Assembly: GCA_032768795.1 (NCBI GenBank)
Contig: CP136496.1
Location: 2,232,001-2,296,000 of the forward strand
Source of the DNA: Tremella fuciformis
Taxonomy: Eukaryota > Basidiomycota > Tremellomycetes > Tremellales > Tremellaceae
DNA length: 64,000 bases
Direction: 5' to 3'
Below the pieces are notes generated by a model, which did no database searches, had not been told where the DNA came from, and saw only the letters and a list, made by a program, of their open reading frames with translations. The translations under genes and the position numbers were made by a program. Shown one piece after another: positions 3,122 to 64,000 of this stretch (the stretch's first letter is position 1; each line of letters begins with the position of its first letter).

Positions 3122-5921
3122 ATGTCGAGCAGCAGGGGAGTCCGGCCGCGCGAGAGCAGCTCACCGTCCGAATCGCACAGCCCGTCGTCTTCGCACCAGA
3201 CCATCTCGGCCAGGAAGAACTGGCACGCCTCGCGAGCATGTGAACGATGTCGCAGCAGGTGGGTTAATCGGGTTTACGGATCAGCCATATGTCTCCCGAT
3301 CTCCCGCTCATGCTGCCCGTTCAGCTAGCCCCTGGCTGTCCATATCACCACATTACCTAGCTGACAGGTGTCGCAGGAAACAAAAATGCAATGGGCGTAA
3401 TCCGTGCTTGTCGTGTTCGGCAAGAGGGCTGAAATGTGCCTTTTCTACTCAGCCCGATGGGCGAAGTGCAGCATCAGCCAGAAGGCAGGATCTGGCGGCC
3501 CGGCAGGAGTCACTGGAGCACCTTCTGTCCCCTTCCAGGTCGGACATGGACATCACCGCTCTTGCGGCATCATCAAATACAACGTCTGAAAACCATGTGC
3601 AGCGACCCTCCGCAAATGAGGTGTTGCAAGCTCTGGTCGACGCAAATGTTCCTGGAACAACGACGGAGCCGAATAGCTTGGGCACTTTGAGTGGAAGTCA
3701 GCGGCCCGTGCTGTCTGCCCGCCGTGTACCACTGTCCGCGACCAGCGGTCATCGGCGTCTGTTCGAACGGCTAAGGGTTGGTGGAGCTGTCTCCAGTGCT
3801 GGAATGTTGGCTAAATTGAGCAGCGAGTCGGTCATGCGGGTCCGCTTGTACAGCATGGCGAAACTTCATTCTGGTCTCATGCAGACCAGGAGGATGGGGA
3901 GAGCGAGTCGACCGACAATGCACCGGCCGAAACATCCGTATCCCCCTTTCATGGGCTCCTGGGCGGTGATCCTGAGCACTGCGACTGGTCGCAGAACCTA
4001 CCGTCGTCGCTAAATATCGACCGTGCAACGCATGACCGTATCTTGAGTCATTTTGGCGCCTACCAAGCCAACTGGTGCTTCTTTGTCAATATGGCACGGT
4101 TCACTCGAGACATGGCCATCTGCAATGCCCGGTCGGACACGGATCGACGGCTCAAACGGACTCACTATTACTCGCCTTTACTTCACAATACCATCCTCTA
4201 CTTGGGAATGTATTTTGGGCGCAGGGAGTGGCCGGAGCTCATGCCGCAATATCGAGCTGTCTTCATGACGCACTGTATCGGGTTGATCGTGTCGGAGAGC
4301 CAGTCGCCCATGCTTAGCACGGTTCGAGGTTTGATCATACTCACAACGTAAGCGTTTCCACTGGTGTGTGGCTGCATGCGCCAACATACCCAGCGCGCTC
4401 AACGAGTCGCCGAATGGCAGCAGGATGTGTGGGTACACAATGGTCGGCCTCTATGTGGCCATGTCTCATGGGGTGAAGGGACTGCTCTGCCCATGTGGTT
4501 CGCGTCTGACGTGTCCAGATTGGTCTCAACGTGCCGTGCAATGGCTATGTGGAGCGAGGGGTGGTCACCGCGGAAGAGAAACAACTTCGCGATGCCACTT
4601 ACTGGACTGTGCATGTGGCGGACATGGTGCGTTACCTTGTCGGAAACCTTCTAACATCAGCTCCGAGCCATCTTCGCCGGGAGACCACCCTTGATGGGAG
4701 CTACTGCTGCCATCGATTGGCCAGTATGCGATCCGGCCGTAGACGACATCCCATGGGCATTTCCCGCTCATCCGCTGCACTCTTCGGCCAGTCTGGGGAT
4801 CACACTCAACGGACTCAAGTCTCGAAATGCCACGACGCTACACTGGTCGGCCCGGCTCAGTGCTCTGTACGGAGAGATAAGGGCCCTATTGTAGGCGGCC
4901 GATAGAGTACAACGTCGCCTGCGGTGGCTGACTCCTGACAGATATCCAAGCGGCGATGCCGAGCTCGCCCTCGATGACAGAATACACTCCTTATCTAGAA
5001 GATTGGACGACTGGAAAGCGAAACTGCCCGAGTCCATCCGATCTCCGGACTCCACGCCCCTCCCGCACATTCTATGCGTGCATATGATGTGTCAGCTCGT
5101 GACTATATTCCTCTTCCGACCATTCTACCTCGAGTCTAGACAGTCGCGGCCCTCGCCGGCAAGTCGTTGTGACGATGCTGCTCTCGAGATGATCAGGCTA
5201 TTGCGGGTGGGTCAGAGCCACGGAGCGAAGCCAGGCTGAACATGACCAGCTGTACGATCAGTATCATTCGGTCGTGAATGGGACAACGACCATGAGTGCG
5301 TCAGCGTGCTGACTCGCCTCCACAGGCTTCTGCTGAAAGGTGGCAGTAACCTTTACTTTCACACCGGTCACCATCCTGCTCATGCGCGCTGTGGAGAGGT
5401 ATCAACGTGGAGAAGATGCCACAATCGAGCAAAGGAACATACAGACTTTGGTGAGTTGAGTCAGAGCTTTTTTTGGGAGAGCTGTGACTTATTCTCCAGG
5501 CCGTCTTGATGAGAGAGCTTTGTAAGTGCCACTTCTGTACGTTTACATGCCAGCTGAGAACGCAGCACGGACGTGGTCTGACGCCGGCCGAGCCCTCCAT
5601 GTTGTCAAGATGTTGTGTTCGGAGTGGTTGCCCGGTGTCATTGACATTGAAGCCCTTGGCAAAGTGCCATCCGACCTGCCTAGAAAGCCGCCTTCCCAAG
5701 GCCCAGCAGACAACACTATCAACGGCATCCTTGATACCCAAACCAACGCCGGAATGCTTTTTACCAACGGGTGGCCATTTGCGGATATCGTCAGTCCTAC
5801 GACCATGGACATGTCCATATTCGACGCCAATCCCGGCATGCCCAACCTCGAAGGCGACCTGTTCACCATGCTGCGGGACGATCTGACGGGGTACATGGAC
5901 AGCTTGGCGGGCATAACATGA
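3122..5921 (+). CDS. Zn2Cys6 transcription factor with fungal-specific TF domain
   Basis: Eleven exons join in phase: 3122-3258, 3377-3776, 3824-4347, 4394-4472, 4519-4626, 4661-4890, 4942-5206, 5250-5295, 5347-5450, 5500-5521 and 5566-5921, giving 756 residues. The acceptor at 3376 was chosen over one 9 nt upstream because only it gives the canonical spacing CERCRSRKQKC, with further cysteines in NPCLSC and GLKC. The middle region (HYYSPLLHNTILYLGMYFG, then YTMVGLYVAMSHG) matches the fungal-specific transcription factor domain. The product should be a nuclear DNA-binding regulator. One intron (4627-4660) is only 34 nt. It lies between the permease and the oxoprolinase/amine oxidase pair, so it is a candidate local regulator; that is inference. 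Confidence 0.85.
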
Positions 5922-34347: not shown

Positions 34348-34901
34348 CTAATCGTAGGTGTCGCCATAGTAGAAGTTGCAGCAACCCGCCGTGTAGCCTT
34401 GTTGCGTGGACAAGTAAGAGCAGGAGTTGGCGTTGCCCCCAGAGTAGACGTAGGTGATGTAACCCGAAGCGGCGGTAAGACTGCTGGGACGGCTTGACTC
34501 ATAGAAAACGCATTCATTGGTCGCTAATTTGCGAACACGCAATCTGATGAGGGACGTCAACACGTCGTCTACAGGAGGAGCGGGAGGGAGGCGTGTGGCA
34601 GGACTTACTGTTATCGTTCAAACAGCTGGCACCACAATCGGTCGACGAAGCCGCAGTAGAGGTGGATTCCTGGAAGGAGATGAGCTCCGCACTTGACATT
34701 TTGAAACAACTCACATATGATCCGCCGCTGCCGGTGTAGCCCGCGTACTCTCCGGCTGTACTGGTCGAGGTTCGGTCTTGACTGTCTGCGCATCCAGTGA
34801 ACGGGGTGGAGCTCGTCTGCCGTTTGAAAGCACCAAACTCTCGGGCGTGTTCCCGCTGGAGAATCTCCTCCCGAGTTGCTTGCCTGATGGAGGTGGAGAG
34901 C

Positions 34902-35214
34902 TGTCAGGACTGTGGCACTGAGACTGTGGCGGAATGAGACAAGGCCAAGTGCCACACGGCCTGACTCAGCCAACCGCCCACTTGCCTCATCCGGGTGAAG
35001 TAGCCGAACTGCTAAATGCGGCACTCGGACTGTCTAGTATAGTTGAACGGTTTTCGAATACATATAGTAGACATTCGAGTAGAGAAGATCTCTAGTCGAA
35101 TGTATCTCTTGTACTCTCAGTCTACTTCTAGTAACCCTACTCGATTGCATACTCCCTGCGAGGCAACCTCGACTTCCCAGCTCGACGCGGACTATCCTAC
35201 GTCCGGTCTTGACA
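34902..35214 (+). repeat. 5' LTR of the Gypsy element
   Basis: 313 bp, TGTC...GACA. A TATA-like catatag at 35061-35067 is followed about 27-30 nt later by the predicted transcript start near 35093. A hairpin spans 35071-35103: arms acattcga/tcgaatgt and tagaga/tctcta with one mismatch between them. The right arm of this hairpin, 35093-35107, is perfectly complementary to the primer-binding site. Confidence 0.93.
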
Positions 35215-35216
35215 TT

Positions 35217-35231
35217 AGATACATTCGACTA
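35217..35231 (+). other. primer-binding site complementary to the LTR (self-priming)
   Basis: The 15-mer agatacattcgacta begins two bases after the 5' LTR, where an LTR retroelement carries its primer-binding site. It is the exact reverse complement of LTR positions 35093-35107. In Tf1 and sushi-type elements the 5' end of the RNA itself folds back onto the PBS and primes minus-strand synthesis. The placement here fits that model and I see no CCA-ending tRNA complement. Confidence 0.75.
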
Positions 35232-35262
35232 TACTTGCACTGAGTATTGCAAGTCGAGGAAC

Positions 35263-36537
35263 ATGAGTGCTTCCACTCGCCAACTACGGTCGCATGTCGA
35301 CCCGGACTCGGAGGACCTCGACACTCCTACGGAGGTTGAGGAACTCCGACGTCAGATACTCGAGCTTCGCCAAGCCAAGGAGCAGAGCGACTCGGCCCTA
35401 GCGGCCGCCCGTCTCGCATTGGCCGAACGGGCCACCCCGGCAACCACTCATCACACGGGAGCCGCGCAAGGTATACCCCTGGAAGAGATCACGGACACGG
35501 ATCTCGACCACGACCACTCGCCGCTCGAGTCCGCTCAGAGGATTTCGAACGCGACGAGATCCTTCAAGGTGAACCCCCCAGATGAATATCACGGTGACCG
35601 CGATAAGCTACCGCAATACATTACCCAGGTACGAATGTACCTTAGCATGCAAGGCGGTGGCCTGGACTCGCGGAGGCAAGTCATTTGGGCGGCATCCTAC
35701 CTACGGGGAAATGCCCTTCGTTGGTGGGAACCGTACTTCAACAGGCCGAAAATCGAACAACCCCTTTTTTGCTCCGACTTGGACCATTTCATTTCCGAGT
35801 TACAGGACATGTTCGGCGACCCGGATAGACACCGAATTGCGGTGCAGCGACTCAAGAAACTGTCGCAAACCCGCACGGTCTCAGAATACTATGCACGATT
35901 CCTGGCGATCTCAGCCGATGTGGAGTATGAGGACCGTAGCCTACGAGACATGTTCGAGTCGGGTCTGCGACCCGAGATCCGCCTGGCCATAGCGAATCGC
36001 GAGCACGAGCCCAGATCCCTAAAAGAGCTGGCGGACGTAGCGATTCGTCTCAATGTACAGCAGGACAGTGTCCGCAACAACTTGCTGCAGCGCGAGCCGG
36101 AGCGAGCTACCTCGAAAAGGTTCGGCGAGGCGCCGGCGACAACTCACTCTCGCGACCGCGCCGACAGACCTTCGAGGGACTACGTTCGATCCCCGAATCC
36201 GCCCTCTCGACCCCCGACCAACCAGAGATATCGGAAGGACGACGGGCACTCGAGGGGTAGGATCTCGCCCAGCGAAAGACAGCGACGGATGGACAAAAAC
36301 CTGTGTCTATACTGTGAGAGCCCGGATCACATTGTAGCCAACTGCCCCACGGCCCCGAAAACGCGAGCTCCTCGAAACAGCCCCGCATCGGGGGCGAACG
36401 CAGTCCGCCTCAATGGTATTAGACACGAATCACCGAATGCGAACGCCAACCTCGATCATACGAAATTCGACAAAGACGATTGGGAAAACAAGTTGGCGTA
36501 CCCCAGCCCCGCGGCGGCGAGGTACGCCTCAGCGTGA
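35263..36537 (+). CDS. Gag polyprotein with zinc knuckle
   Basis: 424 residues from the ATG at 35263 (MSASTRQ); an upstream TTG is not used. Residues 30-75 form a leucine/glutamate-rich coiled coil (VEELRRQILELRQAKEQ). The core has the retrotransposon Gag fold signature with ASYLRGNALRWWEPYF and SDLDHFISELQDMFGD, and later LKKLSQTRTVSEYYARF. A CCHC knuckle, CLYCESPDHIVANC, lies at about residues 347-360 and should bind the genomic RNA. The C-terminal 50 residues overlap pol. The protein forms the particle. The pol frame is -1 relative to gag. Confidence 0.93.
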   Translation: MSASTRQLRSHVDPDSEDLDTPTEVEELRRQILELRQAKEQSDSALAAARLALAERATPATTHHTGAAQGIPLEEITDTDLDHDHSPLESAQRISNATRSFKVNPPDEYHGDRDKLPQYITQVRMYLSMQGGGLDSRRQVIWAASYLRGNALRWWEPYFNRPKIEQPLFCSDLDHFISELQDMFGDPDRHRIAVQRLKKLSQTRTVSEYYARFLAISADVEYEDRSLRDMFESGLRPEIRLAIANREHEPRSLKELADVAIRLNVQQDSVRNNLLQREPERATSKRFGEAPATTHSRDRADRPSRDYVRSPNPPSRPPTNQRYRKDDGHSRGRISPSERQRRMDKNLCLYCESPDHIVANCPTAPKTRAPRNSPASGANAVRLNGIRHESPNANANLDHTKFDKDDWENKLAYPSPAAARYASA

Positions 36538-39500
36538 CCGCCACCTTCGCCGCACTCCCAATCTCGACGCCAGCTATTCCTGATACCCCAGACCTTTTCC
36601 ATATACCTGTCGCGATCGCAAACAAACAATCACTAGTCTCCCGAGCGCTGCTCGACACCGGGGCCTCCCGGAACTTTATAGAGAAAACCTACGCCATCGA
36701 GTCGAAACTCGAATTGCGCCCTTCTAGAATCAAACAGACCCTACGATTAGCGGATGGCTCCCGCAGCGCTATCGAACAAGAGGTTACCCTCACCCTCTTG
36801 CTAGGGGAAGGGTTCCAGCCTTACACAGCTACATTTCTGGTCGCCAGACTAGATGTGGGCCCCATCATCCTTGGGGCGCCATTCTTCAAAGAAGTCAAGC
36901 CAACGCTCGACTGGGATAACCTGGCCATTCAACCTCCTCCCTCGAGATCACACCAGGGCAAGTCGGGAAAACTAAAAGCAATCTCCCTCATCTCGGCCGA
37001 GGCATTCGAACAGATTACGGACGAACCCAAGGGGGCGATCTACCTACGAGCCATCTCCGTGGACCCACCTCGGATGGAGGAAGTGGTACCTACGGAATAC
37101 CACGAGTTCCTGGATGTCTTCTCGGAGTCGGAGGCCACCAAGCTACCTCCTCATAGGCCTTTCAACCACCGCATCCCGCTACTCGACGGCGCTGAGCCGA
37201 CATTCGGCCCGATCTACTCGCTGTCCGTGACCGAACAGGAGGCCCTCCGAGACTACTTGGATACGAACCTCAAGAAAGGCTTTATCGTACCTTCGGAGTC
37301 GCCAGCGGCCTCGCCAATTTTATTCGTAAAGAAGAAAGACGGATCCTTACGCCTCTGCGTGGACTACCGCAAGTTGAATAACATAACCGTCAAGAACCGT
37401 TATCCCCTACCGTTGATCGGAGATCTACTAGACCAACTCCGTGCGGCCACTATCTACTCAAAAATAGACCTACGTGGCGCGTACAACCTCCTCCGGATCG
37501 CCGCCGGGGAAGAATGGAAAACCGCATTCAGAACTCGGTTCGGGCTGTTCGAGTACCGAGTGATGCCATTCGGCCTCACGAATGCCCCAGCCTCATTCCA
37601 ACACTTGATGAACCACATATTCCGCGATGTGCTGGACATTTTCGTCATAGTCTATCTGGACGACATACTTATCTTCTCGAAGTCACGGAGCGAGCACGAG
37701 AGGCACGTCAAAGAAGTCCTACAACAACTGCGGAAATTCGAACTGTTCGCAAAACACGACAAGTGCCAGTTCCATACCGACTCCGTAGAGTTCCTGGGCT
37801 ACATCATCGACCCGAAGGGCGTATCGATGGACCCGAACAAGGTGCGAGCGGTGTCGGCATGGCCAGCACCTCGGAACGTCAAGGAAGTCCAATCCTTCCT
37901 GGGTTTTGCAAACTTCTATCGAAGGTTCATAGCAGGGTTCGCCAAGGTAGCTAAGCCACTGCACGAACTCACTCGGAAGTCGACCCCGTTCTCCTGGTCG
38001 GAACCGCACCAGGCGGCGTTCGACCTGCTCAAGACGAAAATGACGACCGGACCCGTCCTGAAACACTATGACCCAGACCAGGAATGCGTGGTAGAGACCG
38101 ACGCGTCCGATTTCGCGATCGGGGCAGTCATATCCCAGAAAGACGGGGAGAATGGGCTGCGCCCAGTCGCATATTCGAGTCGAGTCATGTCGCGAGCCGA
38201 GTTGAACTACCCGATACACGACAAGGAATTCTTGGCAATCGTGTACGCTTTCAAGGAATGGCGACACTACCTGGAAGGTGCCCGACACCGGACACAAGTG
38301 CTCACCGACCACCGCAGCCTGGAAACCTTCTTGTCAACCAAGCAACTGACCCGACGACAGGCACGATGGGCAGAGATGATGGCAGACTTCAACTTCGAGA
38401 TCTCCTATCGTTCGGGGAAGCAAAGTACTAAACCGGACGCCCTCAGTCGAAGACCGGATTACCTCCCCACCGACTCGACAGCCACGAGCCTGTCTCAGGA
38501 ACTCAACGGACACAATTTCCGACCGCTCCTGTCCTCAGAACAGTTGCTACTCTCCCTACAAGTACAGCTGCTGGGCAAGACGCCGTCCGACTTGTACGAA
38601 GGGGACGACGAGCTAGGATCATTGATCGCGGACGGAAAAGTAACCCAAGACACGCAAGGATACTATAGACACTCGAAAGCATACTACTGTCCCTCGAAGT
38701 CTCGGACAGAGGTCATCGAGGCACATCACGATATAGTCTCGGCCGGTCACCCTGGACCCCGAAAGACTTATCAGGCAATTAGGCAACACTGGTGGTGGCC
38801 GAACATCAAGACGGATGTAGAGAAATCTGCGGCGGAGTGCGAGAAGTGCCAAAGAAACAAGCCCTCGAGACAGAAACCGTACGGCCTCCTTCGACCGCTC
38901 GAACCGCCACTACGACCATGGGCAGACCTGTCTGTGGACTTCATAGTCGACCTGCCCACCTCGAATACCTACGACTCCATCATGGTTGTCGTGGATCGCT
39001 TCTCGAAGATGGCAGTATTCGCGCCCTGTCACAAGTCGATCACCGCTAAAGGAATGTCCGAAATCTTCACGGATAGAGTATATACTCGTTTCGGCATACC
39101 CGACAGCATAGTGTCGGATCGTGGGAGTCTGTTCGTATCCAAATTCTGGAAAGCCTTCTGCCAAGGCCTAGGAACCAACCTGCGCTACTCGACAGCATAC
39201 CACCCACAAACAGACGGACAAACCGAGAGAACGAACCAGTGGCTGGAACAGTACCTACGCAACTATGTGAACCTCGAACAAGACAATTGGGTGCCCCTAC
39301 TGCCGCACGCGGAGTTCTGCTACAATAGCACGCACCACGCCTCGCTGGGTATGAGCCCCCTGGAGGCCTACACCGGGAGAGCATATCGTACGACCCTAGT
39401 CGATCCGCCAGGAGACCTGTCCGACCTGCAAGTTCCAGCAGCCGCCGACCGGGTTCAGCAGCTAGAACAGCTGCACCATCGAATACGAGGGAACTTGCTC

Positions 39501-40076
39501 AGAGCCCAAGAAGGGTGGAAGAAGCAATATGATAAGCGTCGACGTACACCGGACTTCCAAGTAGGGGACAAAGTCTGGCTAAATGGCAAGAACTTGCGCA
39601 CGCTCCGTCCGACTAGGAAATTCGACCACCGTCACGTAGGACCGTACTCCATACTAGAAAGGATAAACGAGAACGCATATAAACTGGACCTGCCTCCGGA
39701 ATTGGTCGCCAATCGAGTTCACCCAGTCTTCAACGTAGAGCTCTTGTCGCACGTTCGTGGGGCTCGAGTCGAAGCGCAACCCGCGCTGGTCGCTCCGCCA
39801 CCAGCCCCACACACTAGCGAGGAGGAGCTTTACGAAGTCGAAGGGGTACTGAAACGAGCTCGACGATCCCGGGGTAAGGCAAGACAACTCGAGGACCAGG
39901 TCCTTGTGAAATGGAAGGGGTACCAACAACCGACCTGGCAACCAACAGACTCTCTAAAGAGAGACCCGCGGTTCGAGTCGTGGATGAAGGGCATCGAGGA
40001 CAGCCAAGTCGAACCCCTAGTATCCGATGCGAAACGCATAAGGCGCGCCCCGCGCTGGAGAACGGAGTCGGCATGA
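36480..40076 (+). CDS. Pol polyprotein (PR-RT-RH-IN-chromodomain)
   Basis: An open frame of up to 1,198 codons overlapping the end of gag by at least 58 nt in the -1 frame. There is no ATG near its start, so it is presumably made by frameshifting. Domains in order: aspartic protease (LLDTGAS, about residue 60); RT with LRLCVDYRKLNNITVKNRYP, MPFGLTNAPASFQ and the catalytic YLDD (near residue 394); RNase H with VVETDASDFAIGAVIS and LTDHRSL; integrase with the HHCC finger (HxxxxxGHxG... CEKCQ), core Asp residues in SVDFIVDLP and IVSDRGS, and Glu in DGQTERTNQ; GPY/F module (GPYSILERI); and a chromodomain (YEVEGVLK...VKWKGYQQPTWQP) at the C-terminus. The chromodomain marks the chromovirus clade and may guide insertion to marked chromatin. 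Confidence 0.95.
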   Translation: MGKQVGVPQPRGGEVRLSVTATFAALPISTPAIPDTPDLFHIPVAIANKQSLVSRALLDTGASRNFIEKTYAIESKLELRPSRIKQTLRLADGSRSAIEQEVTLTLLLGEGFQPYTATFLVARLDVGPIILGAPFFKEVKPTLDWDNLAIQPPPSRSHQGKSGKLKAISLISAEAFEQITDEPKGAIYLRAISVDPPRMEEVVPTEYHEFLDVFSESEATKLPPHRPFNHRIPLLDGAEPTFGPIYSLSVTEQEALRDYLDTNLKKGFIVPSESPAASPILFVKKKDGSLRLCVDYRKLNNITVKNRYPLPLIGDLLDQLRAATIYSKIDLRGAYNLLRIAAGEEWKTAFRTRFGLFEYRVMPFGLTNAPASFQHLMNHIFRDVLDIFVIVYLDDILIFSKSRSEHERHVKEVLQQLRKFELFAKHDKCQFHTDSVEFLGYIIDPKGVSMDPNKVRAVSAWPAPRNVKEVQSFLGFANFYRRFIAGFAKVAKPLHELTRKSTPFSWSEPHQAAFDLLKTKMTTGPVLKHYDPDQECVVETDASDFAIGAVISQKDGENGLRPVAYSSRVMSRAELNYPIHDKEFLAIVYAFKEWRHYLEGARHRTQVLTDHRSLETFLSTKQLTRRQARWAEMMADFNFEISYRSGKQSTKPDALSRRPDYLPTDSTATSLSQELNGHNFRPLLSSEQLLLSLQVQLLGKTPSDLYEGDDELGSLIADGKVTQDTQGYYRHSKAYYCPSKSRTEVIEAHHDIVSAGHPGPRKTYQAIRQHWWWPNIKTDVEKSAAECEKCQRNKPSRQKPYGLLRPLEPPLRPWADLSVDFIVDLPTSNTYDSIMVVVDRFSKMAVFAPCHKSITAKGMSEIFTDRVYTRFGIPDSIVSDRGSLFVSKFWKAFCQGLGTNLRYSTAYHPQTDGQTERTNQWLEQYLRNYVNLEQDNWVPLLPHAEFCYNSTHHASLGMSPLEAYTGRAYRTTLVDPPGDLSDLQVPAAADRVQQLEQLHHRIRGNLLRAQEGWKKQYDKRRRTPDFQVGDKVWLNGKNLRTLRPTRKFDHRHVGPYSILERINENAYKLDLPPELVANRVHPVFNVELLSHVRGARVEAQPALVAPPPAPHTSEEELYEVEGVLKRARRSRGKARQLEDQVLVKWKGYQQPTWQPTDSLKRDPRFESWMKGIEDSQVEPLVSDAKRIRRAPRWRTESA

Positions 40077-40108
40077 GGTCTCTGCATAAAATACAACCTG
40101 GACTACAA

Positions 40109-41788
40109 TCACTTGCGGCGGCCGCGCTTCGTCTTGAGGGCGCCAAGCGCGGCGCGCTGTGGCGCCTTCGCCTCACTGGCAGTCTTCTCCTTGGTCTGCA
40201 GTCGGGTCGTGCGGTGCGGGATGTCGGATTCCGACTCGAGGGACTCAGCTCGGGCAGACAGAAGTCGAGTAACCGAGTGGTGCCGGTCGGGAGACGAGTG
40301 AATGGAGGGCGCGGGCGAGTCCTCCAATAGCCGCTTCAAACCACCCCCACCGACCACCGAGGGACCCGCAACCCCCTCCTCAGCGCCTTCGGCCATCGCG
40401 TCGTCCAAAGAGCTCCAGTCGAGTGTAGACACCAACGGAGGATCACCCGAGTCTAGCAGAGCGACTTGAGACTCGCCGCGGAATGCAGTCCGGTTCAAAT
40501 GCTGCAAGTCAGATCTCGACAAGACCAAGACGAAATCCGACTACACTTACCTGATATTTGGAGTAATTGATTCTATAGATCTCCAAGATAGCATTACGGG
40601 CCAGACCGGGTTTCGCATCTGCAAGTAGAGCTGCCGCCTGGCGGTGAATTCCTGCGATAACACCCTTACGACGAACGACCTCGTCGGCAGGGAGGACGAG
40701 TTGAGCTCGGGGCCCAAGAGCGGTGTTGGGCAAAAGGGTGCAGTGTTTCGACTTGAGCATACACCCAAGACACCTATACGTCAGCGAAAATCGAGTACGG
40801 TAAGTCGAAAACATACTTCTGCGCCACATACCGCCTACCATCGACCTCCACAACCGGGCAGACGCAGAGTAGACCCGAGTAGCCCGACATGGGAGGGCGA
40901 TTATGGGACACACAGGCTGCACAACGCTCCGCCCCCATCAGGACGCCCCACGAGCCGGAGTCAAGCGCTTCGAGGATGTTCGACCCGGTATCCGCGGTGT
41001 CGCCAGTACGAGTCGAAATGTACGACTCGATCCACGAGTAGAAGGACTCGATCCTCGAGTCGTCGTGTCCAACGACCTCCGGTTCTTTCAGCGGGTACCG
41101 ATACACGCGATTCAGACGCTTGACCACCAACTCTTCGCCTTCAACCCTCGGGAACACCCCACTAGGAGTTCGACCTGCCTTGGTCGGCGAAGGAGTAGGG
41201 ATCGGCTGACCCGGGCTCGAGTCGGGGGCCGAGCCGAACAAGTCGCTCAGACCGACCTCAGTAGCCGAAGACACGACTTTGGCAGGCGGAGATGCGGCCT
41301 TAGGGAAGCCCAAAGGGCGATGAGCATGACCCTTTTGACTAGCCGGTGTCTCGGGAATGCTGCTCGAGCCGAAGGGTGGTTGACGAGAGATAGGAGAGGG
41401 ATCCAAGATGTGTTTCTTGGGTGAGAGACGACCGATGGGAGCAAGGGGAGCCTTGAAAGGCGATTGAATAGGCGGGAATACCGACTCAGCACGAGCAGGA
41501 GTCGACTTTACGGGAGAGGAACCCTAACAGCTTAACTCGAAGTCCGTCTACTGGCATTCGACTCACGGATTTATCCCTTTCTCGACGTAAAGCCGCCTTC
41601 CCCGCAGCAACCAGCTTGTCGACCTCAAACTTGAAAATGGCATTTTCGGGCTGCGCTTCGAGGTTCTCTCGAGCGGCCTGGAGTTGAATTCGATAGTCGT
41701 CCGCCGAGGCCGTACCGAGGTACGCCTCATCGTAGGCATCTTGTATGCCCTGCTCAACATTGAATCCGGCCAGCTCGTCGTCGACCAT
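40109..41788 (-). CDS. antisense spliced accessory gene inside the Gypsy element, unknown function
   Basis: Minus-strand gene between pol and the 3' LTR. Exons 41567-41788, 40817-41523, 40551-40773 and 40109-40501 are joined by three GT-AG introns of 43, 43 and 49 nt whose phases (0, 2, 0) all fit, giving 514 residues. The N-terminal 70 residues form an acidic/leucine coiled-coil-like segment. A proline/serine-rich linker follows (PIPTPSPTKAGRTP). Next comes a cysteine-rich centre: ERCAAC, LLCVCPVV, and CLGCMLKSKHC (CX2CX6C, like half of a Zn2Cys6 cluster). The tail is basic (TKRGRRK). I recognise no family. Pol and this gene converge with a 32-bp gap. Because it is antisense, its introns cannot be removed from the element's own sense genomic RNA, which explains how spliceosomal introns persist. 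A zinc-binding, nuclear protein is my best inference. Confidence 0.75.
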
Positions 41789-41989
41789 GATGAGAACAGT
41801 ACGAAAGACGACTCAAGGAAGACGAAGTCCGGACACAACAACCAGAACAACAACTTGCATGAAAGGGTAAACAACGGCGTCTCTCGGGCTTACGGGCGTG
41901 GCATCTACCTCAACGAACCGAACACACAGTGCCAAAGGACGCAACATCGAATAAAGGATGTCAACAACCGAGGATGTCGGGTCGACATC

Positions 41990-42003
41990 AAAGAAGAGGG
42001 GGG
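41990..42003 (+). other. polypurine tract of the Gypsy element
   Basis: The run aaagaagagggggg lies 4 bases before the 3' LTR, the usual position of the plus-strand primer. The exact RNase H cut sites cannot be given. Confidence 0.8.
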
Positions 42004-42007
42004 CGAC

Positions 42008-42320
42008 TGTCAGGACTGTGGCACTGAGACTGTGGCGGAATGAGACAAGGCCAAGTGCCACACGGCCTGACTCAGCCAACCGCCCACTTGCCTCATCCGG
42101 GTGAAGTAGCCGAACTGCTAAATGCGGCACTCGGACTGTCTAGTATAGTTGAACGGTTTTCGAATACATATAGTAGACATTCGAGTAGAGAAGATCTCTA
42201 GTCGAATGTATCTCTTGTACTCTCAGTCTACTTCTAGTAACCCTACTCGATTGCATACTCCCTGCGAGGCAACCTCGACTTCCCAGCTCGACGCGGACTA
42301 TCCTACGTCCGGTCTTGACA
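42008..42320 (+). repeat. 3' LTR of the Gypsy element
   Basis: Same 313 bp as the 5' LTR with no difference that I can find by eye. Its minus strand lies 219 bp before the ATG of the antisense gene, so it is the likely source of that gene's promoter. Confidence 0.93.
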
Positions 42321-42432
42321 TGAGCTTGGGCAACGACGGAGCGGGAGCTCTGCCTTTCTGTGGTCCTGCCATAGCAGGAGCGACGAGCGCGGCGAGTAGG
42401 GCGGCAGTAGACGCGAGAGGGAAGTAGACCAT

Positions 42433-61190: not shown

Positions 61191-61275
61191 TGTCATGAAT
61201 CAACACTTAGGAGAAATAGTATTAGTATCAGGATCCAAGAAATAGAGTAAAGTCCGGACCTTAAGGGTAACAGTC

Positions 61276-61425
61276 GTAGAAGCTGCACAGAAGTTGCTCA
61301 GCACCTGCACAGCATCTGCTTAGAACCTGCGTAGCACTTACTTAGAACTTACTTAGCACTTGCTTAGAACCTGCTCAGCACCTGCGTAGCACCTGCTCAG
61401 CACCATTCGTAGAATCTGCCCAGCG
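61276..61425. repeat. degenerate ~10-bp tandem repeat in the LTR
   Basis: About 13 copies of a unit resembling acctgctcagc / acttacttag run head to tail. The block is downstream of the predicted transcript start on the minus strand. Confidence 0.7.
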
Positions 61426-62101
61426 CTCTGGGTGGCAAATTCATAGTTCTTAGCAATCTGGTGAAAGGGATATAAGCAGGCCTGTTTGCCGCTGAAGACC
61501 TTTTCCCCAGTTATGGATCAAAAGTCATTCCCTTGTCTCTCTTCCTAGTCCCAGTCCCCCAGTCCTCCAGACCACGTCCAGTGCAACCCTGCGCCATCAT
61601 TCTGTTACACAGAGAGGCAAGACAGCAGACAAGCCAGAGACTAGTCATTCCAGTTCCAGTCCAGTTTGCCACTCACAGTAGTGCGCTTCCAGTCAAGTCC
61701 TGCCTAGCTTTAGCTCCATCCGTCTGTCACGCTGGGGTCGGATGTACGAGGAGTGACCTTGAGGGTTGAGGGGGTAGTCTCTGACTTGTCTGAGCGAGAG
61801 TGACTGAGGGTACTGAGGTTGTTGGGTTGGAACCAACTGTGTGACTTTGTACAAGGAAGTACAAGATACATCGCTGAAGAAGAAAAGCAATGTCAAACGA
61901 ACTACAGGGTTTATATAGTCTACCTAGAGAAAATTACCTATATCACTGATATAGATTCGCCCGAAATCTCTATCTATTCTCATCATATCTCTCATATTTG
62001 CACGCTCTGCTCTGATGCCTTGTGATCTCCTATTCTCCTATATTCTCTTCTATTCTCATGCTCTAACAATGAGAATATAGGATATTCTCTATGAGACCGG
62101 T

Positions 62102-62226
62102 CTAGTTCTCTATGAGGATATGTTAGTTCTCTATGAGATATACTAGTTCTCAGTGAGAGTATGCTAGTTCTCAGTGAGAATATGCTAGTTCTCTGCGAGA
62201 ATAGGCTAGTTCTCGTTGAGAATATA
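62102..62226. repeat. 21-bp tandem repeat (about six copies) in the LTR
   Basis: Six units of about 21 bp built on ctagttctcagtgagaatatg. Each contains ttctc and gagaa arms that can form a small hairpin. It lies in the U3 part of the LTR, upstream of the TATA box, where enhancer repeats are common. Confidence 0.75.
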
Positions 62227-62260
62227 GCTTTTATTGCGAGTCATGACAGGAGCTCCCCCT

Positions 62261-64000
62261 CTAAGGGCGAAGTCCTCTGAGCCTGGATGATCTGCGTTCA
62301 GATCTTTTGGTGTTTGTTGAAGTCTGGCGGTGTGCTCTGGATGGAGGGAAATGGTGTTGGGGATCCTTGAGGTGTTGTCGATGGAATTTGTTGTAGGCCG
62401 TGGTGTCATGGACGTTTTCCCATGGTTCCCATGAGTTGTGGGCGCTTGAATAGTCTTTCCAGCTGACAAGGTAGTCATAACCGTTGTCTGGGCTGATTCG
62501 AGAGTCAAGGATTCTGTCAATGATGTATTCTTCTTGTCCATTGACTTCAATGCGTGGAGGTGGATCCTGTGGTTGCTGAGGATGTCCGTGGCGCATTGGT
62601 TCCAGAAGGTTGACGTGGAAGACTGGGTGAATGTTCATGGATGGTGGGAGGTCCAACTTAAATGCGAGAGGAGAGGATGTGGCCTCAATGATCTTGAACG
62701 GTCCAAGCATCCTTTGGTCGAGCTTGAGTGAGGGTCGAAGTGTTTGTATGTTCCTTCGATTCAGGAAGACCTGATCTCCTACTTTGAAGAGTGGTTGATC
62801 CTTGGCCTGGATTTCTTTGATTTTTCGATTATAGAACTTGGTGTAATGCTCTTGGGCGGCCTTGATATTATCGGAGAGCTGTTGGTGCAAGGAGTGTAAC
62901 TTTTCGAGGTGTGTCTGTGCTGCAGGAACCAATGATGTTGGAGGTGTTGTGGGATCATTTGGGTGGTACCCATAGTTGGCTTCAAAAGGAGTGAACTTGG
63001 TTGACGAGTGGACCGAGTTGTTGTAGCTGTATTCTGCCAGGTCCAAAAGGGATGACCAGTTGGCTTGGTCATAGTCACAAAATGACCGAAGGTAGTGTTC
63101 CAGAACTTGATTGACTCGTTCTGTTTGTCCATCGGATTGCGGATGAAAGGCCGTAGAGAAGTTTGGTGTAATGCCTAGTCCTTTGACAAATGACTTCCAG
63201 AATTGCGAGTTGAAGATTGATCCGCGGTCGGAAACAATGTTGTGGGGAAGTCCATGAAGTCTCCAAATGTTTTGTCGGAACATTGTTGCTAAGTTGGGCG
63301 CATCGAAGCCATCTTCTTTGAATGGGACAAAGTGGGCTTGTTTGGTGAAGCGGTCAACAAAGACCATAATTGAGTCGTAACCTCTCGATGACGGGAGCTT
63401 GACAATAGCATCCATAGAGATTGAGTGCCAAGGTTTGCTGGGTACTGGGAGCGGCTGAAGAGGTCCGTAGGGTTTGTGTCGAGGTATTTTGTTCCGTGCG
63501 CATGTGTGACATCCGTCCACATAGGTGTTGGTGAATTGTCGCATGCCAGGAAAGTAGTAGTGTCGAGCTAGAAGTTGATATGTCTTTTGTTGTCCAAAGT
63601 GTCCTGCGGTAGGGGTGTTATGACACTGGTGAAGTAGGTCGATTTTGAGATCCTGATTGTCTGGGACATAGACCTTTTGTTGGTATCGGATAATGTTGTC
63701 GTCAAGGCTGAAGTCTTTGATTTTTTCTTGGAGTGTGCTGGGAGCAGGTCGATCTGGATGACGCAGATAAGGCAAAAGCTCTTTAAGGATGGGGTCCTCA
63801 GGCTGAAGTTGCTCTATCTTAGTCATCAAGTCTGATTTTACTGGGATGTTGGGAGTGTCGGTAGGTGTGAGGGCTCCAATGATGAATTGCCCGGGTTTGA
63901 GGAGTGTATGTGGAGGTGCGTCTGCGGCTCTACTCCCCCCTTGAAGGTCTGACCTCCTGGTCAGGGCATCTGGTTTGCCCATCTTTTCTCCAGGTCGGTA
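62261..64000 (-). CDS. Pol polyprotein (integrase-chromodomain end) of a second Gypsy element, partial
   Basis: An open minus-strand frame from the right window edge to a stop at 62261. It starts within the region following RNase H (KPDALTRR). It then shows the integrase zinc finger (HNTPTAGHFGQQKTY...CHTCARNK), the core with SMDAIVKLP, VDRFTKQAHFVP, IVSDRGSIFNSQFW and PQSDGQTERVNQ, the GPF module (MLGPFKIIEA...HPVFHVNLLEP) and a chromodomain (EYIIDRILDSRI...YLVSWKDYSSAHNSWEPWENV). The amino acid sequence differs strongly from the element at 34.9-42.3 kb, so this is another chromovirus lineage. No stop interrupts the 580 codons seen. There is no antisense gene between this pol and its LTR. 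Confidence 0.93.
   Translation of the reverse strand, partial: YRPGEKMGKPDALTRRSDLQGGSRAADAPPHTLLKPGQFIIGALTPTDTPNIPVKSDLMTKIEQLQPEDPILKELLPYLRHPDRPAPSTLQEKIKDFSLDDNIIRYQQKVYVPDNQDLKIDLLHQCHNTPTAGHFGQQKTYQLLARHYYFPGMRQFTNTYVDGCHTCARNKIPRHKPYGPLQPLPVPSKPWHSISMDAIVKLPSSRGYDSIMVFVDRFTKQAHFVPFKEDGFDAPNLATMFRQNIWRLHGLPHNIVSDRGSIFNSQFWKSFVKGLGITPNFSTAFHPQSDGQTERVNQVLEHYLRSFCDYDQANWSSLLDLAEYSYNNSVHSSTKFTPFEANYGYHPNDPTTPPTSLVPAAQTHLEKLHSLHQQLSDNIKAAQEHYTKFYNRKIKEIQAKDQPLFKVGDQVFLNRRNIQTLRPSLKLDQRMLGPFKIIEATSSPLAFKLDLPPSMNIHPVFHVNLLEPMRHGHPQQPQDPPPRIEVNGQEEYIIDRILDSRISPDNGYDYLVSWKDYSSAHNSWEPWENVHDTTAYNKFHRQHLKDPQHHFPPSRAHRQTSTNTKRSERRSSRLRGLRP

Follow-up and report, generated by a model that had tools for sequence, protein, structure and literature searches.

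The stretch of Tremella fuciformis DNA analysed here (the window, 64,000 nucleotides in length; positions 2,232,001 to 2,296,000 of contig CP136496.1, assembly GCA_032768795.1) contains a Gypsy long terminal repeat (LTR) retrotransposon, whose family is referred to as A, and this element carries between its pol gene and its 3' LTR, on the opposite strand, a third gene interrupted by three introns. Comparisons of the copies of this element in the whole genome (28.1 Mb, 11 contigs) indicate that the antisense frame is a genuine gene, which is held by selection at the protein level, and homologous antisense genes are found in two other Gypsy families (X and Y) of the same genome. The best reading of these results, which we put forward tentatively and at somewhat less than an even chance, is that the gene encodes a nuclear accessory protein, which would bind the DNA or chromatin of its own element.

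Structure of the antisense gene

The antisense gene is placed between the stop codon of pol (40076) and the 3' LTR (42008), in the orientation opposite to gag-pol, and the stop codons of the two genes are 32 bases apart. Its minus-strand exons (41788-41567, 41523-40817, 40773-40551 and 40501-40109) add up to 1545 nt, viz. 514 codons and a TGA, with zero internal stops, and the four exons, three GT-AG introns and 514-residue frame described in an earlier reading of this DNA (the first-pass annotation) join exactly as was claimed there. The parts of the gene and of the region upstream of it are as follows:

Exon 1, 41567..41788, minus strand: ATG at 41788
Intron 1, 41524..41566, minus strand: 43 nt, GTGAGT..TAG; 50 nt in copies L051, L052 and L054
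Exon 2, 40817..41523, minus strand: proline/serine/threonine (P/S/T)-rich stretch, after which the cysteine module begins
Intron 2, 40774..40816, minus strand: 43 nt, GTATGT..TAG
Exon 3, 40551..40773, minus strand: end of the cysteine module (CX2CX6C)
Intron 3, 40502..40550, minus strand: 49 nt, GTAAGT..CAG; an intron-like stretch is at the matching place in the relic L056
Exon 4, 40109..40501, minus strand: acidic stretch and basic tail; stop codon 40111-40109
Conserved upstream block, 41877..42007, minus strand: candidate antisense promoter; 8/131 differences from copy L054; polypurine-like tract at the LTR end

Words resembling branch points (TTAAG, CTGAC and CTGAC) start 11-12 nt upstream of the ends of the introns. 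We infer that the gene is transcribed and spliced. The protein begins with an acidic N-terminus and ends in a basic tail, and between them are a P/S/T-rich linker and a six-cysteine module. The CX2C, CXC and CX2CX6C patterns and the basic tail pointed out in the first-pass annotation are all present, and all 7 of the 7 cysteines are retained in the divergent copy L054. The module may bind zinc, and roles in chromatin, nuclear entry or self-regulation may be envisaged for the protein.

In the region upstream of the gene, 22 of the 88 sites next to the ATG (41789-41876) are different in L054. The block 41877-42007 has changed at a rate similar to that of the LTR (17/313), and the rate at third codon positions (135/514) is far higher. 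The simplest reading of this block is that an antisense promoter next to the polypurine-like tract has been conserved; an exchange between lineages at the 3' end may alternatively be the cause of the small number of differences.

Conservation and protein-level selection in family A

A DNA search of the genome, in which the best candidates were scored, gave 19 matches that represent at least 17 copies of the gene, two of which are split. Of these 17 copies, 14 have kept the spliced frame intact, viz. 12 close copies (L039-L050) and the copies L051 and L054, and it is broken in L052 (20-nt insertion), L053 (206-nt deletion) and L055 (440-nt insertion). Random stops in this frame beside intact gag and pol, which were named at the outset as the sign of a functionless frame, are thus not the pattern seen in these copies. 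All 17 copies have introns 2 and 3. Intron 1 is present in 16; L053 has lost it within its 206-nt deletion. Introns that are not removed from the sense RNA would be expected to persist in this manner, and the result bears out the argument of the first-pass annotation that a gene in the antisense orientation keeps its introns through retrotransposition. Of the reverse transcriptases (RTs) of A type (95-100% identity), at least 16 are found among the best 106 of 249 RT candidates, and 14 of these are located inside a gene-bearing copy at the normal distance from the gene. The other two are 26-27 kb from a gene copy, across what are taken to be nested insertions. The antisense open reading frame (ORF) is accordingly present in most A copies, with the placement and conservation of an aORF-3R. 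As a separate observation, the A copies L040 and L051 appear to be split by nested insertions of about 24-26 kb, their A-type RTs being too distant by that much.

The comparison of the window copy with L054 is the most informative in regard to selection. The ratio of nonsynonymous to synonymous divergence (dN/dS) is 0.150 for the antisense gene (dN 0.068, dS 0.454), and it is 0.081 for gag and 0.075 for pol. The check proposed in the first-pass annotation, viz. that other copies should keep the frame at a dN/dS below 1, thus came out in its favour. When the other two forward frames of the antisense gene are read, the values are 1.65 and 2.40, and those of the three reverse frames are 1.23, 2.29 and 0.28. 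The low reverse frame (0.20-0.43 in five other divergent pairs) does not indicate that coding on the sense strand is the cause of the low dN/dS, as the frame with the value of 0.28 carries 18 stops, and this explanation was rejected. The only true exon indel in L054 is a 3-nt deletion and its stop codon is present, while a 7-nt insertion in the divergent copies L051, L052 and L054 is inside intron 1. When the 211 substitutions were placed randomly, 36 of 5000 runs were free of stops, with 100 or more amino-acid changes in every case, in comparison to the 66 observed, two of which are gap positions. Among 10 young copies, the singleton and shared substitutions, respectively, are 12N/16S and 4N/10S for the antisense gene, 20N/26S and 3N/7S for pol, and 4N/13S and 1N/3S for gag (N, nonsynonymous; S, synonymous), which are too few to separate. 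In the introns, 14 of 135 sites are different in L054, a smaller share than that of third codon positions (135 of 514), and this holds even outside the splice sites; the TCGA words described below or limits on size may constrain them.

These results bear on two other explanations of the gene. A spliced frame that arose by chance, or a fragment of a host gene that was captured and is without function, would be in keeping with the lack of any match in the protein searches that were run. However, this explanation is rejected by the conservation of the frame in 14/17 copies and across a dS of 0.45, by the placement of the indels, by the dN/dS values with their other-frame controls and by the simulation, as well as by the homologues in two other Gypsy families, and it is exceedingly improbable. 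If, on the other hand, it is the antisense RNA rather than a protein that matters, through the formation of double-stranded RNA with the genomic RNA and self-limitation, then the complementarity by position of the entire antisense mRNA to the RNA of the element is readily understood. However, the dN/dS of 0.15, the exon indel of 3 nt and the confinement of the 7-nt indel to an intron are all marks of selection on the protein, and this explanation is very unlikely. A DNA transposon nested within the element was also considered as the source of the gene and was rejected, as good terminal inverted repeats flanking the gene were not found (the longest pair is of 23 nt, with 74% identity).

Anatomy and age of the retrotransposon

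The LTRs, gag and the order of the pol domains (RT, RNase H, integrase (INT)) of the window element are those of a chromovirus-like Ty3/Gypsy layout. Its features are:

Whole element, 34902..42320: Gypsy LTR retrotransposon
5' target-site duplication, 34897..34901: AGAGC; 4/5 bases agree with the 3' side
5' LTR, 34902..35214, plus strand: TGTC...GACA, 313 bp; 313/313 the same as the 3' LTR
gag, 35263..36537, plus strand: Retrotrans_gag, CCHC-knuckle-like
pol open frame, 36423..40076, plus strand: RT, RNase H, INT, SH3, weak chromodomain; in another frame than gag and overlapping it
3' LTR, 42008..42320, plus strand: 313 bp; 313/313 the same as the 5' LTR
3' target-site duplication, 42321..42325: TGAGC

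The start of pol contains DTGA, which we take to be protease-like, and the match of its C-terminus to Pfam Chromo (E 9.6e-4, 19.5 bits) is under the cut-off of 25.1. The LTR pairs are identical in all 12 copies in which both LTRs are in view, inclusive of L054, and in these gag is intact in 12/12. An exact 5-bp target-site duplication is present in 9 of the 12, the exceptions being the window copy (4/5 bases), L053 and L054, and pol (36540-40073) is without stops in 11 of 12 copies examined. The window element is a recent insertion. Moreover, because their LTR pairs are identical, two lineages about 0.45 dS apart both look recently mobile, and each of them has an intact antisense gene. It is also observed that L054 (contig C9) and L039 belong to subfamilies with a synonymous divergence of about 0.45, yet their LTRs are just 5.4% apart. 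This small distance could result either from constraint on the LTR or from exchange between the lineages.

Homologous antisense genes in two other Gypsy families

The first-pass annotation treated the gene as a lone passenger of one element, a view which the families X and Y do not support. Pieces of other retrotransposons are joined to the A copies L040, L051 and L055, and those in L051 and L055 contain antisense ORFs with a similar cysteine pattern. Family X (L040, L051) is a Gypsy family with protease, RT, RNase H and INT-type domains and a chromodomain over the cut-off, and its pol is 38% identical to that of A. Its antisense ORF (L051:944-1594, minus strand) comes after the pol stop near 797 and before a stretch starting at L051:3427, which recurs ahead of gag in L040 and is taken as the X LTR. 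In family Y (L055), the presumed LTR of 434 bp also stands alone within the A antisense gene of L055, and a 40-nt intron (GTGAGT..TAG) links two ORFs in frame. For X, the same script accepted no intron model, though GT..AG pairs are present at the matching place.

A protein search of the genome gave 66 matches to the Y exon and 65 to the X exon, each set including the other family, and these are mostly of 50-56% identity across the module. Among the best 106 of 249 RT candidates, 11 RTs are 46-48% identical to that of A, and in 8 of these cases a Y gene in the opposite orientation follows 3.04-3.10 kb after the start of the RT. Of the remaining three, one has a Y gene nearby on the same strand and two have none listed nearby. 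A Y-group RT and a Y-type gene are on the same strand at C1:7593775-7597897, possibly in a rearranged or nested copy.

The sequence evidence indicates that the six-cysteine modules of A and of X/Y are homologous. Their alignment by hhalign has a probability of 90 and a score of 43.8, in comparison to maxima of 19.7 when all columns were shuffled and 20.5 when the cysteines were kept fixed (100 runs each). By BLASTP, the matches of Y with five A copies have E values of 8e-5 to 0.003. Across six sequences, five of the cysteine columns do not vary, and the sixth cysteine is missing only in L058, a diverged Y copy. The Zn(II)2Cys6 pattern of fungal proteins is CX2CX6C, a linker and CX2CX6-8C; the modules of X and Y are CX2CX6C..CX2CX4-5C, and in the module of A the first half is longer.

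Two relics on contig C10 (L056 and L057) also contain decayed remains of the A-type gene. The piece in L056 (4936-5504) retains the intron-like stretch at the position of intron 3, and remnants of pol that are about 40% identical to A pol (5545-5921) are present on the opposite strand, convergent with it. This appears to be the same arrangement in a much older element, which would make the arrangement itself an old one. In L057 there is a short gene piece only (4750-4869), with no match to gag or pol.

Searches for related proteins

No Pfam family was matched at the curated cut-off, Zn_clus included, by the antisense protein of A, by the X and Y proteins or by the module, and the profile search of the 514-residue protein suggested in the first-pass annotation consequently identified no family. 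The matches in the PDB were only marginal. In a set of 5.8 billion proteins, a search that reaches proteins sharing exact 5-residue words gave no match to the A antisense protein; the set does contain fungal proteins, as the pol search showed, its named matches including proteins of Tremellales sp. and Trichosporon asahii. An AlphaFold model of exon 2 alone had a mean pLDDT (the per-residue score of the model) of 44 and was not used.

A short word dispersed through the elements

The DNA of the window element is rich in a short word, NNTCGA, which in A has the following form:

A[CGT]TCGA, 73 dispersed sites, 34902..42320: in the LTRs, gag, pol, the antisense exons, and introns 1 and 2

The density of these sites is 9.8 per kb in the element versus 1.8 in the rest of the window. 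With shuffling of synonymous codons as the null for coding DNA, pol has 31 words versus 14.0 expected, which 0/300 shuffles reach (14.2 and 0/200 in a second run), and the antisense gene has 14 versus 5.7 expected, again reached by 0/300. The word was first spotted in element A itself, and the 747 non-coding bases in which it occurs 16 times versus 1.3 expected lie inside that same element, though they play no part in the synonymous null. When all 4-mers and 6-mers were ranked under that null without prior selection, TCGA and ACTCGA came first. The two orientations have 42 and 31 words (12 sites are counted in both), and this occurrence in both orientations suits DNA better than RNA. Between the two lineages, 86 of 106 TCGA sites are retained, in comparison to 19/35 for CCGG, 25/36 for GATC, 11/25 for AGCT, 16/29 for GCGC, 18/23 for CTAG, 10/14 for ACGT and 67% overall for CG-centred 4-mers. 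TCGA is thus the best retained, but CTAG and ACGT are close.

In family X the word takes another form. C[CG]TCGA is found 28 times versus 10.7 expected in gag-pol and 11 times versus 4.0 in the INT piece (0/200 shuffles reach either), and A-type words are not over the null (7 vs 6.9 and 4 vs 3.9, respectively). The presumed LTR pieces contain 9 of these words in X and 13 in Y (overlapping counts). Six other long ORFs of the window, which are assumed to be host genes but were unchecked, have no excess of the word. In the genome, CSTCGA forms 1031 triple clusters on one strand and 1038 on the other, versus 29 and 28 for the reversed pattern, and on contig C1, 27 of the 47 listed places of A-type clusters fall in A copies, which span 67 kb of 8.65 Mb.

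A contrast is provided by a Gypsy family at the right end of the window (61191-64000, 3' part; 61% RT identity to A), in which the pol stop and the LTR are 12 nt apart and which is therefore without the antisense gene. It has zero C[CG]TCGA in its LTR and no excess in pol. The word thus tracks the antisense gene imperfectly, and the link between gene and word is only suggestive, because the word is also found in a Copia family that has little room for the gene: there the clusters flank a Copia ORF of 1352 codons and are about 4.7 kb apart.

Proposed mode of action and its rivals

Based upon these results, the following mode of action may be proposed. Transcription of the antisense gene would start from a promoter in the 3' LTR or next to it, and the transcript would be spliced three times; the protein would enter the nucleus, where its cysteine module would bind the DNA of its own element at the dispersed NNTCGA words; and the bound protein would keep the chromatin of the element open or transcribed, to the benefit of the element by which it is encoded.

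A number of observations weigh against this proposal. No known DNA-binding family is matched in Pfam by the A, X and Y proteins or the module. Under the synonymous null, gag of A has no excess of the word (4 vs 3.1) and the cysteine exons of the other families are little enriched (X, 8 vs 5.2; Y, 7 vs 2.9). The raw density of A-type words is also raised in the X, Y and Copia pieces (3.3-4.8 per kb vs 1.8), and the excess of A-type triple clusters in the genome is weak (106/100 vs 77/69 reversed). The gene-less Gypsy family is also poorer in CpG, and the Copia element (RVT_2; L052:3792-7847) is enriched in both types of word (TCGA, 63 vs 39.7). It is possible that Copia uses the antisense protein in trans, or that the word serves a host factor.

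If the gene encodes a selected accessory protein which acts elsewhere, as in nuclear import of the pre-integration complex, the choice of target, or the export or packaging of RNA, then the TCGA words are unrelated to it. The gene-level evidence fits this explanation equally, a protein with a basic tail and a cysteine module could as well have a role that concerns RNA or nuclear transport, and the words are present in the Copia element, in which there is little room for the gene. However, the flavour of the word differs between A and X, as does the protein module, and the one gene-less Gypsy family that was checked does not have the word. We regard an action elsewhere as a serious possibility, falling a little short of probable. 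Alternatively, the TCGA words may be the sites of a host factor (a silencer, an activator or a replication protein) common to several families, which the antisense protein antagonises or recruits. The sharing of C[CG]TCGA by X, Y (LTR) and the Copia family and the large genome-wide excess of its triple clusters can be understood in this manner, but the A flavour is unlike that of X and the six other window ORFs are without enrichment, and we consider a host factor unlikely. Returning to a protein that binds its own element, it can be extended to the proposal that several Gypsy families have in common an ancient antisense gene, which encodes a six-cysteine protein that binds DNA, and that each has seeded its whole sequence, coding DNA included, with a word of its own (for A, ANTCGA; for X and Y, C[CG]TCGA), in a manner of self-recognition or anti-silencing like that of the plant VANC proteins, which the gene-less Copia exploits in trans. 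This wider proposal is rather doubtful.

Relationship to known systems

The first-pass annotation named antisense precedents from plant Gypsy groups and none from fungi, and in this respect it requires correction, as Boty, a Gypsy element of Botrytis cinerea, carries the antisense gene brtn (PMC7264820, PMC8365987, PMC4227169). Both are fungal gag-pol elements with an extra antisense gene, that of Boty being listed between pol and the 3' LTR (PMC7264820). However, the host of Boty is an ascomycete, and the likeness is drawn from descriptions in citing papers. In plants, antisense ORFs (aORFs) are described in Grande (gene23), RIRE2, Retand (TRP28) and PvRetro13; the Grande protein is nuclear and its gene has its own promoter, and TRP28 is predicted to bind DNA (PMC7264820; PMC11963269). 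The window gene differs from them in its three introns and six-cysteine module, and its protein has no Pfam match to TRP28 or SMC. Reviews list antisense accessory ORFs of this kind in LTR retrotransposons with no function known for them (PMC7264820). Among the open-access matches listed, brtn's own paper aside, there was no spliced antisense gene in a fungal Gypsy element and no cysteine-module family of antisense genes, and the extracts of PMC2864245, PMC3248453 and PMC5408684 contain no spliced antisense case.

A spliced antisense transcript from the 3' LTR that leads to a regulatory protein is known for the HBZ and APH-2 genes of human T-cell leukaemia viruses (HTLV). However, in this case the element is a retrovirus, HBZ is a basic leucine zipper protein and its ATG is in the 3' LTR segment (PMC3185765), and no relation in sequence is claimed. 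In terms of working, by analogy, the closest analogue is that of the VANC proteins of VANDAL elements, which are encoded by a transposable element (TE) and have a TE-specific word. They are accessory proteins with a dense short word that varies between related TE families. For VANC21, however, the words are mainly non-coding and the binding is shown by chromatin immunoprecipitation and electrophoretic mobility shift assays (PMC5735166, PMC10398659), whereas in the A element the words are found throughout the coding and non-coding DNA of an LTR element and the binding is predicted only. A word enrichment that would suit a system of the VANC type is seen in A and X and, by LTR count, in Y, but it is seen also in Copia with little room for a gene.

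Significance

The genome of T. fuciformis provides a natural experiment in regard to these genes, as it contains three Gypsy families with related antisense genes and one related family without, in addition to two A lineages at a dS of 0.45 that both look recently mobile and a word which tracks the gene imperfectly. The function of an antisense gene of an LTR retrotransposon can thereby be examined in a simple binding assay. Should the protein bind the word, this would account for a short word that is dispersed through coding DNA, and it would constitute a system of self-recognition in LTR elements, comparable with that of VANC in plants.
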